DNA from: Jiangella sp. DSM 45060
GTDB taxonomy: Bacteria > Actinomycetota > Actinomycetes > Jiangellales > Jiangellaceae
DNA: 64,000 nucleotides
Direction: 5' to 3'
NCBI RefSeq assembly: GCF_900105175.1
Contig: NZ_LT629771.1
Location: 2,480,001 to 2,544,000 of the forward strand
Program-made: the position numbers and the translations under genes
The notes under the pieces: generated by a model
What the model saw: only the letters and a program-made list of their open reading frames with translations
What the model was told of the DNA's origin: nothing
Databases searched by the model: none
Shown: in pieces, positions 23,464 to 47,409 of the stretch
How positions within the stretch are numbered: the first letter of the stretch is position 1
How the letters are laid out: each line of letters starts with the position of its first letter

Positions 23464-24065
23464 TCCGGGTCCTACTCGCCGACGACGAGAACCTGATCAG
23501 GTCCGCGCTGCGAGCGCTGCTGTCGCTGGAGGACGGCATCGAGGTCGTCGCCGAGGCCGCCACCGCCGACGAGGCCCTCGCCATGGCCCGCACCTTCACC
23601 CCCGACGTCGCCGTCCTCGACCTGCAGCTGCCCGACCGCGACGGCATCTCCCTGGCCGCCGACCTGCACCGCCTCGTCCCCGGCTGCCGCACGATGATCG
23701 TCACCAGCCACGGCCGGCCCGGCTACCTCAAGCGGGCGCTCGCCGGGGGAGTGGGCGGCTTCCTCCCCAAGACGGTGTCGGCGTCGGTGCTGGCCCAGGT
23801 CGTCCGGACCGTCCACGACGGCGGCCGCTACGTCGACCCGGAGCTCGCCGCCGAGGCCATCAGCGCCGGCGACAGCCCGCTGACGGCGCGGGAGGCGGAC
23901 GTGCTGGAGCTGGCGGCCGAGGGCGCGCCGGTCGAGGAGATCGCCCGGCGGGCGGCGCTGACTCCAGGGACCGTGCGGAACTACCTCTCGTCGGCGGCGT
24001 CGAAGCTGGGCGCCGCGAACCGGCACGAGGCGGTGCACGTGGCGCGGCGGCACGGGTGGATCTAG
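23460..24065 (+). CDS. LuxR/NarL-family response regulator
   Basis: A 201-aa DNA-binding response regulator. The receiver domain has an acidic pocket DDE at 8-10, the phosphorylation site Asp54 (LDLQLPD) and the conserved lysine in LPKT. The C-terminal LuxR helix-turn-helix (about 138-195) reads LTAREADVLELAAEG with RNYLSSAASKLGA. The GTG start overlaps the kinase stop. The gene is the last of a four-gene rightward unit, and the intergenic repeat element begins right after it. Confidence 0.93.
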   Translation: MIRVLLADDENLIRSALRALLSLEDGIEVVAEAATADEALAMARTFTPDVAVLDLQLPDRDGISLAADLHRLVPGCRTMIVTSHGRPGYLKRALAGGVGGFLPKTVSASVLAQVVRTVHDGGRYVDPELAAEAISAGDSPLTAREADVLELAAEGAPVEEIARRAALTPGTVRNYLSSAASKLGAANRHEAVHVARRHGWI

Positions 24066-24530
24066 TTCTTTTGGTTCTTTGGTTCGTGGGGCTTGTGTTG
24101 GTTGGGTTTGTCGCGTTGGCCTGCCCCCTGCTGCTCTCCATTGTCGGGGGCGGTTCAGCAGCGTCAGGGGGCCGGCCGGAAATGGGCCCGGCTCCCACCT
24201 CTGCCGGCCTTCTTGTCCGCTGGCCGCTCACTGGCCGTGGGCGGTGTTCCGGCTACCGGCTCCGCTGCTGGTCCCGGCCCGCCGGCCGGTCACTGGCCCG
24301 CTTCGGGTGTTGGCGACCGGCTCCGCTGTTGGTCCTGGTCCGCTGGCCGCTCACTGGTCCGCTCGTGTTCGGCTATCGGCTATCGGCTCCGCTCGGCTCG
24401 TCGTCCGCTGGCCGCCGTCTGCTCCGCTCGCCCTTGCCGTCGCCGCGTCGCGTGGTGTAGGTAGACCCCTCCCGGCCCGGGTGGGGCCCACCCTACGGGC
24501 GGGCACCGACAACGTCGCTGCGCCGCGAAC
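24066..24530 (+). repeat. intergenic repeat element, copy A
   Basis: A non-coding element between convergent genes that has a homolog at 46466-46905 in the same orientation. Shared parts, in order, are a G/T-rich start, a hairpin block with CCCCCTG (24124-24130) and CAGGGGG (24165-24171), and AATGGGCCCGGCT (24181-24193). A variable centre of about 260 bp follows, with short direct repeats such as CCGGCTCCGCTG twice. The closing 61-bp block (24457-24517) is identical to copy B at 60 positions. That block contains the palindromic GGGTGGGGCCCACCC, flanking GTAGG/CCTAC arms and a CGAC-AAC-GTCG hairpin. From 24531 to the dinB end the strand is C-rich without structure I can name. Confidence 0.75.
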
Positions 24531-24652: not shown

Positions 24653-25972
24653 TCAGGCGGCGGCGAGGGGGTCGGTGGGGATCGGCGGCGGGGGAGCGGG
24701 CGTCAGCTCGGGATCGTCCACCGCGAAGGTGCGGACGGGGCCGGGAGGGGTGTCGGCGGTCTCGAAGCGGACGGTGACCCGACCTCGCCCGGACCCCCAC
24801 ACCCAGCCGGCGCCGTGCACCGCGTGCACGACGTCCATGCCGGGGGACCAGCCGCGGCGCTCGTGCAGGGCGTCGTCGACCGGCTCGGCCGGAACAGCGG
24901 TGGGAACGGCGTCGGCGACGAAGAGGTCGTCCTGGACCCAGTCGGACAGACCCGACACGCCGACGCCGAGGAGGCGGACGCCGCCGGTGGTGTCGAGGTC
25001 GGCCAGCAGCTGGGTCGCCACCCACGACAGCATGCGGGCGTCGTCCGTCGGGGCGGGCAGGGTGGAGGAGCGCGACAGCGTGGTGAAGTCGTGCAGCCGC
25101 GTCTTCAGCGTGATCGTCCGCCCCGACAGCCCGGCCGTGGCCAGCCGCTGCGCCACCCGATCGGCCAGCCGGACGACGATGGCGGCGAGCAGGGCGGGGT
25201 CGGTGAGGTCGCGGTCGAACGTGTCCTCGACGCTGACGGACTTCGACTCGCGGTCGGCGCTGACCGGCCGGTCGTCGCGGGCCAGCGAGAGGCGGTGCAG
25301 GGAGCGGCCGTGCGCGTCGCCGAGGAGGTCGACGAGATCGGGCTCGGTGATGCGGGCGAGGTCGCCGACGGTCTTGACGCCGAAACGGGCCAGCCGTGCG
25401 GCCGTCGCCGGGCCGACGCCGGGGAGGGCGCGGATGGGCAGCGGGTGCAGCACGTCCAGCTCGGTGCCCGGCTCGATGACCACCAGGCCGTTGGGTTTGG
25501 CCTGCTCGGAGGCGATCTTCGCCATCAGCTTGGACGCCGCGACGCCGACGGAGGCGGTCACGCCGGTCTCATCGACGATCGTCGATCGCAGCGACCGCGC
25601 CAGCGCCCGCACCTCGTCGGCGGACGGCGGCGCGCCGCCGGGGCCGGCCGCGAGGTCGACGAACGCCTCGTCCAGCGACAGCGGCTCGACCACCGGCGAC
25701 AGCTTCCGCAGCCGGGCCATGACCACCGCGCTGACCGCCCGGTACACGCCGAACCGGCCGGACAGGTAGGCGGCGTTCGGGCAGCGGGAGCGGGCCTCGC
25801 TCATCGACATCGCGGACCGGACGCCGAACACGCGCGCCTCGTAGGACGCGGTCGACACGACCCCGCGCGGCCCCAGCCCGCCGACGATGACCGGTTTGCC
25901 GCGCAGCGACGGCTTGTCGCGCTGCTCGACCGAGGCGAAGAATGCGTCCAGGTCGAGATGGAGGACGCGCAT
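24653..25972 (-). CDS. dinB: DNA polymerase IV (Y family)
   Basis: An error-prone translesion polymerase of 439 aa. The palm has the metal ligands in LDLDAFFASVEQ (residues 5-16) and SLDEAF. The steric-gate Phe is in the FFA segment, and a helix-hairpin-helix part reads ALPGVGPATAARL. A clamp-binding motif QDDLF follows the little-finger domain. A C-terminal extension of about 70 aa, with VVHAVHGAGWVWG, looks like the Tudor-like tail found in actinobacterial DinB2 proteins. The start is the ATG that yields MRVLHLDLD. No LexA box is seen upstream. Divergent from the Usp gene. Confidence 0.94.
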   Translation of the reverse strand: MRVLHLDLDAFFASVEQRDKPSLRGKPVIVGGLGPRGVVSTASYEARVFGVRSAMSMSEARSRCPNAAYLSGRFGVYRAVSAVVMARLRKLSPVVEPLSLDEAFVDLAAGPGGAPPSADEVRALARSLRSTIVDETGVTASVGVAASKLMAKIASEQAKPNGLVVIEPGTELDVLHPLPIRALPGVGPATAARLARFGVKTVGDLARITEPDLVDLLGDAHGRSLHRLSLARDDRPVSADRESKSVSVEDTFDRDLTDPALLAAIVVRLADRVAQRLATAGLSGRTITLKTRLHDFTTLSRSSTLPAPTDDARMLSWVATQLLADLDTTGGVRLLGVGVSGLSDWVQDDLFVADAVPTAVPAEPVDDALHERRGWSPGMDVVHAVHGAGWVWGSGRGRVTVRFETADTPPGPVRTFAVDDPELTPAPPPPIPTDPLAAA

Positions 25973-46121: not shown

Positions 46122-46465
46122 CCTGGTTCGACGTCGCCTCCGCGGTCTGCCTGCTGGCGGGGTGCGGGCTGTCGCTGGTCGCCGCGATCGGACTCATCCG
46201 GTTCCCCGACCTGCTCAGCCGCATGCACGCCGGCACGAAGCCGCAGGTGCTCGGCCTGCTGCTGATCCTCGTCGGGGTCGGGCTGCGGCTGCGCGACTGG
46301 AGCGAGGTCGGCATGCTGCTGGCCGTCGCGCTGTTCCAGCTGATGACCGCCCCGGTGGCGGCGCACATGGTCGGCCGGGCCGCCTACCGCCGCGGCGCGG
46401 TTCGGCGCGACACCCTGCTCGTGGACGAGTTGACGCCGGCATTGGAGGCGGAGGACCGGGACTGA
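46118..46465 (+). CDS. mrpG: Mrp antiporter subunit G
   Basis: A 115-aa protein with three membrane segments and the MrpG signature IRFPDLLSRMHAGTKPQVLG, then PVAAHMVGRAAYR. It is the last gene of the Mrp operon, giving the order A/B-C-D-E-F-G, complete for a group 1 type complex apart from the fusion. The second intergenic repeat element follows it directly. Confidence 0.94.
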   Translation: MTWFDVASAVCLLAGCGLSLVAAIGLIRFPDLLSRMHAGTKPQVLGLLLILVGVGLRLRDWSEVGMLLAVALFQLMTAPVAAHMVGRAAYRRGAVRRDTLLVDELTPALEAEDRD

Positions 46466-46905
46466 GGGGCCGGTTCTTCGGCGGGCCGTTCTCGGTTGGC
46501 CGGGCGCTCGTTGCGTGGGGTTGCCGCGTGGGCCTGCCCCCCGGGCCCCCGTTCAAGCATCGTCAGGGGGGCCGCCGAAGAATGGGCCCGGCTTCTCGCT
46601 CTGCTGGGGTTCGGGTCCGCTGGCGGCTGGCGGCTGGCGGCTGGCGGCTGGCGGGTTGTGGGTGGGGTTCTGGCTACCAGCTTCGCTCGGCTCCCTGGCC
46701 GCACTGGGTGTTCATCCACCTTTTGCGTTGTCAGGGCAGCACAGAAGGTTGATGATCATGGGCTGGCCGTGGCGCATGGGTGTGGAAGTGGTGTGGCCCG
46801 GCGACGACGCTGTGCGGGGCGTCGCGCCGTGGTAGGTAGACCCCTCCCGGCCCGGATGGGGCCCACCCTACGGGCGGGCACCGACAACGTCGCGCCACGC
46901 GAACC
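46466..46905 (+). repeat. intergenic repeat element, copy B
   Basis: Homolog of the element at 24066-24530, same orientation, again between convergent genes. The hairpin block has GGCCTGCCCC (46531-46540) and CGTCAGGGGG (46561-46570). AATGGGCCCGGCT is at 46581-46593. The centre differs from copy A and holds five tandem CTGGCGG units (46620-46654). The closing 61-bp block (46832-46892) differs from copy A by one base, G to A, inside the GGGTGGGGCCCACCC palindrome. The spacing between the two fixed blocks is 251 bp here and 276 bp in copy A. Confidence 0.75.
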
Positions 46906-46926: not shown

Positions 46927-47409
46927 TCAGAGCGGGCGCGAGTAGTAGCGCACCGACTTGCCGCGGCCGATCAGCGCGGCCGAGCCGACCGGGGTGAACC
47001 CCATGGAGGTGTGCAGCGCGTCGGAGGCCGGGTTCGGCGGGTCGAGGTTGACCTCGGCGCACAGCAGCGACTGCCCCTCGGCGCGGGCCGCCGCGATGAC
47101 GTCCTCGTAGAGCGCTCGGGCCAGCCCCTGGCCGCGGGTGGCCGGCGACACCACGACGCGGTCGATGTAGGCGAAGCGTGGGTGGCGGGCCTTGAACCAG
47201 TCGAAGTTCTGGCTGGACCGGACGGTGTCCTGGTCGAACGCGATGACCATGGCGCTGAGGTCGTCGGTGACGCGGACCCGCCAGGCCACCTTCAGCAGCT
47301 CGCGGAACTCGTCGGCGGTCAGCTCGGACAGCTCGAGCGCGTGATCGTTGTTCAGCCGCAGCAGGGCGGCCTCGTCGGCGGTGGCAGGGGCGCGGAAGGT
47401 GTGCGGCAC
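46927..47409 (-). CDS. GNAT-family N-acetyltransferase
   Basis: A 160-aa acetyltransferase. The acetyl-CoA loop reads VVSPATRGQGLARALYEDV (V..R-x-x-G-x-G/A), and the C-terminus has the SMGFTPVGS motif. The substrate region near residues 60-75 has SSQNFDWFKARHPRFAYIDR. It resembles uncharacterised actinobacterial members. The GTG start lies 6 nt after a TACGCT box on the minus strand, so it is probably leaderless. Divergent from the decayed LLM gene. Confidence 0.9.
   Translation of the reverse strand: MPHTFRAPATADEAALLRLNNDHALELSELTADEFRELLKVAWRVRVTDDLSAMVIAFDQDTVRSSQNFDWFKARHPRFAYIDRVVVSPATRGQGLARALYEDVIAAARAEGQSLLCAEVNLDPPNPASDALHTSMGFTPVGSAALIGRGKSVRYYSRPL

Follow-up and report, generated by a model that had tools for sequence, protein, structure and literature searches.

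A multi-copy intergenic repeat of Jiangella joins a PafBC-type promoter motif to a G+C-rich inverted repeat

Introduction

What keeps two distant stretches of non-coding DNA nearly identical within one bacterial chromosome? The question was raised by a 64,000-nt window from the genome of Jiangella, a soil bacterium (genome G000; 7.49 Mb in a single contig), in which an initial annotation, made from sequence alone, pointed to two 61-bp blocks that were said to match at 60 of 61 bases, to share one orientation, to be non-coding and to lie between convergent genes. Re-reading the window confirmed each of these statements: the blocks, at 24457-24517 (copy 1) and 46832-46892 (copy 2), have a single difference (GGGTGGGG versus GGATGGGG), and gene calls and Pfam place converging genes around both. 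Copy 1 lies between a gene that we take, from its sequence, to encode a response regulator (+ strand, ending at 24065) and a DinB-type (IMS) polymerase gene (- strand, ending at 24653; Pfam), and copy 2 between genes for an MnhG-type antiporter subunit (+ strand, ending at 46465) and a GNAT acetyltransferase (- strand, ending at 46927), both assigned by Pfam. A 21-base core of the block, searched with up to 3 mismatches, has two matches in the window against 0.01 expected. We considered and rejected a protein-coding block: one + strand frame is open, but by eye its third positions are as conserved as the others, and loop length changes in relatives also disfavor coding.

We argue here that the block probably comprises the promoter and the start of the transcribed region of a non-coding transcription unit inducible by DNA damage, one member of a multi-copy, lineage-specific family dispersed through the genome. 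This reading is drawn from sequence comparison and held with moderate confidence.

Results

A many-copy family largely confined to Jiangella

The apparent copy number of two reflects only the limits of the window. Searching G000 with the 61-base block returned at least 41 matches (40 of 229 first-look candidates were scored), and the 21-base core, at up to 3 mismatches, returned 66, compared with 1 for a reversed control. When 59 copies were lined up with their flanks, the core was near-invariant and the flanks mostly unlike, with a longer shared stretch in some copies. An exact 25-base core matched 84 stretches among named genomes, and all 80 listed were from Jiangella. In a sample of 60 genomes, 12 matched, of which 10 were Jiangella (10 of 12 Jiangella genomes, G000 included); the other two matches were weak, single and in other genera of the family, and one of them (L068) has an ATG behind the motif and no hairpin. 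The initial annotation had envisaged a single duplication, should only two copies exist and relatives lack them; the counts in G000 and in 10 of 12 Jiangella genomes speak against it.

The family had no counterpart in the collections that we searched. Five loci gave no Rfam match at the gathering score, copy 1 gave no blastn match among plasmids and phages, and one degenerate motif-plus-arm pattern found nothing in the viral_contigs collection. We found no report of the repeat in the open-licence literature searched, including the available portions of PMC6789036, PMC11804915, PMC5656591, PMC11077062 and PMC2229807.

The core is a consensus PafBC promoter

Mycobacteria rely on PafBC as a main regulator of their response to DNA damage. 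Read on the minus strand, the core of the block is TGTCGGTG-CCCGCCCG-TAGGGT, an exact match to the consensus given in excerpts of PMC5656591 for PafBC (RecA-NDp) DNA-damage promoters, tTGTCRgtg-8 nt-TannnT, with its -26 box TGTCRGTG, 8-nt spacer and TANNNT. The initial annotation, which had written out the + strand, missed this identity. PafBC works via this motif (PMC6789036), its mechanism of action is described in PMC11804915, and in the parts of this literature available the targets described are genes.

In copy 1 (24457..24517, promoter on the - strand) the -26 box TGTCGGTG occupies 24504..24511 and, 8 nt from it, the -10 box TAGGGT occupies 24490..24495; the whole motif corresponds to genome positions 2504490-2504511. 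Behind it on the same strand, at 24467..24485, lies the inverted repeat CCCACCC-GGGCC-GGGAGGG. Copy 2 (46832..46892, - strand) has the motif TGTCGGTG-N8-TAGGGT at 46865..46886 and the hairpin at 46842..46860, where one arm base is changed (CCCATCC); its single difference from copy 1 thus breaks an arm, as had been claimed.

Strict motifs number 165 in G000 and a reversed pattern has none. This is the highest count among 393 genomes of the class; the 12 Jiangella genomes carry 28-165 each (all motifs, hairpin or not), and the highest count listed outside the genus is 40. We saw no strand bias of the sites along the G000 chromosome in 500-kb bins inspected by eye. The genome encodes PafB and PafC: downstream of pafA lie neighboring genes for two WYL/WCX proteins, one of which has an HTH_PafC domain.

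Most sites carry a hairpin in place of a gene start

We listed 157 of the 165 strict motifs (100 of the 108 preceded by T and all 57 preceded by another base) and merged their surroundings with those of the aligned copies into 537 kb, 7.2% of the genome; allowing TGTCAGTG, this DNA holds 170 sites, 161 strict and 9 with A. At 150 of them a hairpin follows and at 20 it does not, counts that rest on loci picked by motif. The pattern CCC.CCC-loop-GGG.GGG, beginning 3-7 nt past the -10 box, accounts for 140 of the hairpin sites, and the other 10 were assigned by eye because a changed base or shifted arm escapes the pattern, as the changed arm base does at copy 2 (site 2526886).

Sites of the other kind look like promoters of genes. 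In 14 of the 20, a start codon lies 6-8 nt past the -10 box, and the six tested with Pfam precede genes for UvrC, a UvrB-type protein, a putative RadA-type protein, DnaX, Tmk (thymidylate kinase) and an epoxide hydrolase. Such gene starts suggest that the motif functions as a promoter in this genome. Given the positions of these start codons, transcription at hairpin sites is predicted to start about 7-9 nt past the -10 box, which in copy 1 and elsewhere would fall inside the 5' arm of the hairpin.

Scanning the 537 kb for hairpins without regard to the motif gave 566 matches, whose motif scores fell into a background of 3-8 and a separate group of 148 at 9-11 of 11. All 148 have a spacer of 8, though 7 and 9 were permitted; as the loci were chosen by motif, the scan tests spacing and bimodality and not the genome-wide share of promoterless hairpins. 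Among 66 matches to the hairpin side alone, sequence was at hand for 61, and 55 of these keep the full motif; of the remaining six, two are one base off and four are truncated, rearranged, partial or the same copy on the opposite strand. Spacers at the 150 hairpin sites are of 19 types, CCCGCCC plus one base making up 125, and sites with other spacers retain both boxes (the sites having been found by motif).

Arms, loops and folding

The arms of the hairpin are near-constant and the loops vary in sequence and in length (3-6 nt); the variable loop length speaks for a hairpin over a rigid operator. The fourth arm position is T/C in 107 copies, A/A in 83 and A/C in 41, unpaired in 233 of 235 and paired in 2. 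The pairings proposed earlier within the block fared unevenly: CCC.CCC/GGG.GGG arms recur throughout the family, but the remaining ones do not. A check for covariation found none, the stems being near-invariant and the outer arms failing to covary. Folding seven sequences as RNA returned the named hairpin as the best fold in four; z-scores for the six hairpin sequences ranged from -0.96 to 0.52, none significant, and the seventh, which starts at the predicted transcription start, adopts another fold (z -1.92). For such G+C-rich sequence the folding energy is ordinary, and neither covariation nor folding statistics support the hairpin. With a start inside the 5' arm, the RNA may be without part of the stem.

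An outer stem, in which the upstream arm seemed by eye to pair with the downstream arm, was rejected by a test with re-paired copies: over 235 copies the longest complementary outer-arm run averages 4.48, against 4.56 in re-paired controls, and terminal inverted repeats are accordingly not seen. The tetranucleotide GTAG stands near the hairpin foot in most copies and is lost where the -10 box has CTAG, ATAG or CTAC. At four G000 loci (225126, 225285, 1136389 and 445997), with the -10 box TAGTGT, an additional inverted repeat (CCCACCC...GGGTGGG or similar) comes immediately after the first and is a possible 3' end of the RNA.

Hairpin sites prefer convergent gaps and rarely face a nearby gene

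An in-house codon-usage gene finder run on the 537 kb put 126 of the 150 hairpin sites between genes and 24 in called frames. With these 24 and two at stretch ends left out, the hairpin sites occupy 98 distinct gaps, of which 44 are convergent, 42 co-directional and 12 divergent; in 101 other gaps of at least 100 nt in the same DNA the numbers are 13, 48 and 40 (Fisher p = 7e-7 for the convergent excess and 1e-5 for the divergent deficit). The convergent setting of the two window copies therefore reflects a preference of the family but no rule, at 44 of 98 gaps. At 45 of 124 hairpin sites the next gene downstream has the sense orientation, and for 16 of the 124 such a gene begins within 150 nt, compared with 15 of 17 gene-type sites. 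Driving a gene is no part of what defines a PafBC promoter. The median distances from a hairpin site to its neighboring genes are 148 and 204 nt.

Among the 157 listed motif sites, all 29 pairs of neighbors less than 600 bp apart share a strand (one pair being gene-type). Tandem arrays of 2-4 PafBC-hairpin units occur at four loci, L170 (G000 4907656-4908051), L171 (3825272-3825551), L172 and L173, with units spaced 105-163 bp apart and spacers that differ from the common type.

Places and orientations persist across species while hairpins change

We compared 95 hairpin sites of relatives, mostly exact-match finds and so biased to the common spacer, with the element loci of G000. Both flanks were syntenic at 43, one flank at 15 and neither at 36, and one site matched two far places. 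Between the syntenic flanks G000 has a hairpin-class site of its own in 42 of 43 cases, the 43rd being a copy with one motif base changed, and orientation is equal in all 42 pairs, which cover 32 G000 sites. Among 39 distinct orthologous pairs, the hairpin is identical in 16, altered by 1-2 edits in 7 and altered by at least 3 in the other 16; these last fall at 13 of the 32 G000 sites, and in two of them (3864895 and 5655083) a second G000 element in the gap makes the pairing uncertain. In the 16 pairs with equal hairpins, identity is 0.91-0.94 over the first 46 bases and 0.50 just upstream, and downstream it drops from 0.84 to 0.64 within 12 bases, by +58. In the 23 unequal pairs it is about 0.9 in the promoter, 0.53-0.79 in the hairpin and 0.35-0.45 in the 20 bases next upstream. 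For 26 of 42 pairs, the G000 copy resembles its fifth-best paralogue more closely than its orthologue. This looks like concerted change, in which places persist and variants change; copies of common descent could also be held uniform in their core by gene conversion, with no selection involved.

Of 18 G000 sites tried in a close relative (G004), 4 could be located. Three of these, the two window copies and 2896180, are kept there in the same orientation, the window copies as syntenic islands of about 70 bp amid scrambled intergenic DNA; the fourth, 2909594, is missing at the syntenic place, and the flanks of this one empty site are too diverged for a target-site duplication to be read. The earlier suggestion of selection or recent copying thus fits a many-copy family whose two window members stand as kept islands in G004. 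Two further Jiangella genomes (G003 and G006) have no block match, and none of the ten sites read in each (out of 32 and 29, respectively) has a hairpin. Two genomes without a block match or a hairpin in the sites read, and one of four located copies missing in G004, indicate that the element is not essential.

These comparisons bear most directly on the rival that survives best, a selfish or neutral intergenic repeat of the ERIC, Correia or REP kind, which carries a promoter-like core by chance, is kept uniform by gene conversion and serves no host role. Avoidance of divergent gaps and the tandem arrays would suit it, as would match and motif counts that vary by species, the two genomes without the hairpin kind in the sites read, the copy absent from G004 and the clearly different hairpins in 16 of 39 orthologous pairs. 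Yet place and orientation are kept across species, unlike those of a moving element; the arm test found no terminal inverted repeats; a search of G000 for the RAYT (Y1_Tnp) transposase gave 0 matches, with 5 of 14 control genomes positive; and conservation centers on promoter and hairpin, both boxes being kept even with other spacers, though at sites found by motif. REP/RAYT mobility was rejected on the lack of Y1_Tnp in G000, and we consider the wider explanation rather unlikely.

Some loci carry further modules downstream

Alignment of 12 loci revealed further shared modules downstream of the promoter. A second module lies 354 bp downstream of the copy 1 promoter on the - strand, at 24112..24200 (outer limits approximate) with its core CGGCCCCCTGACGCTGCT at 24157-24174. 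This core has 18 copies in G000 at up to 1 mismatch and 30 at up to 2 (reversed control, 2). Fourteen of the 18 are found 169-666 bp downstream from an element and on its strand, compared with an expectation of 0.7%; 12 of these elements are strict and 2, added by hand, degenerate. A diverged copy outside the 18 lies downstream of the copy 2 promoter (46524..46600, - strand, outer limits approximate). Between that promoter and the diverged copy, the alignment shows a third module, an intergenic inverted repeat around CATGATCATCAACCTT at 46712..46765 (- strand, core 46736-46760, outer limits approximate). It has 7 matches, 3 of them between a promoter and a second module, and diverged forms in further loci. 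Copies with a similar loop are found at G000 2279449, 2342682, 5033033, 1773843, 1773814 and 384982.

Discussion

From the work on mycobacteria (PMC11804915) we infer the following course of events. After DNA damage, single-stranded DNA would activate PafBC; PafBC would then enable the housekeeping RNA polymerase to read the TGTCGGTG box at -26; and transcription would begin about 7-9 nt past TANNNT, at the foot of the short G+C inverted repeat. This would yield a short RNA that begins with the inverted repeat and lacks a recognised reading frame, and at composite loci the RNA would run on for several hundred bases into the second module 169-666 bp downstream. Most likely the RNA would act in trans, as a damage-induced pool supplied by many copies; such a role would agree with hairpin variants being shared within a genome. 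More tentatively, and as a possibility that we hold to be less likely than not, the genus may have adapted the PafBC promoter to drive non-coding units, up to about 150 of them across the genome, that supply damage-induced hairpin RNA in bulk; either conversion or co-evolution with a partner acting in trans would keep its sequence uniform within each genome.

The same sites might instead act as decoys. In that case roughly 150 idle PafBC promoters would tie up RNA polymerase bound to PafBC and thereby govern how soon, or at what level of damage, the response begins, with the hairpin hindering promoter escape. Hairpin sites do far outnumber the gene-type sites examined, 150 to 20, and rarely aim at a near gene, and the Mycobacterium RNA polymerase-PafBC complex forms only on such promoters, according to the available part of PMC11804915; but decoys need neither a hairpin nor a conserved place, and we regard this explanation as improbable. 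Least credible of all is a terminator or structural DNA element placed where convergent genes end, with a fortuitous likeness to a promoter, which would suit the convergent preference and the palindromic G+C core but leaves the 8-nt spacing of the boxes unexplained and sits badly with neighboring genes at medians of 148 and 204 nt and with the lack of a T-run behind the hairpin in the 140 listed copies inspected by eye.

Should the sites fire as the non-coding promoters that we favor, most of the PafBC-type promoters examined (150 of 170) would yield non-coding RNA, and an RNA layer would have been added to the DNA-damage response. Should they stay silent, the family would clearly exemplify either promoter decoys or a repeat that has been homogenised around a stress promoter.

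Several known systems resemble the family in part. Actinobacterial PafBC-dependent (RecA-NDp, recA P1-type) promoters have the same -26 TGTCRGTG, 8-nt spacer and -10 TANNNT, and in G000, which encodes PafB and PafC, this type also precedes repair and replication genes; at the hairpin sites, in contrast, a hairpin replaces the gene start, and the roughly 150 copies stand mostly outside promoter gaps. Correia/NEMIS and ERIC elements are likewise short, intergenic, hairpin-forming and present in many copies, and Correia elements carry putative promoters (PMC2229807, in part). The Jiangella repeat differs from them in having no detected terminal inverted repeats, a core of about 46-61 bp and a stress-regulon promoter as its conserved heart. 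REP and REPIN sequences, which go with a RAYT transposase, are short, palindromic, dispersed and intergenic, with GTAG near the hairpin foot. Most copies of our repeat share these traits, but GTAG is not always kept and the genome yielded no Y1_Tnp.

The 13E12 repeats (DUF222/HNH genes) carry RecA-NDp promoters and, like the Jiangella family, are repeated units behind PafBC-type promoters, but they are protein genes. At six loci of G006 and G003 (L250, L253, L256, L257, L262 and L263), similar leaderless genes starting with ATGTTCG stand behind PafBC motifs; these look like members of the 13E12/DUF222 family.
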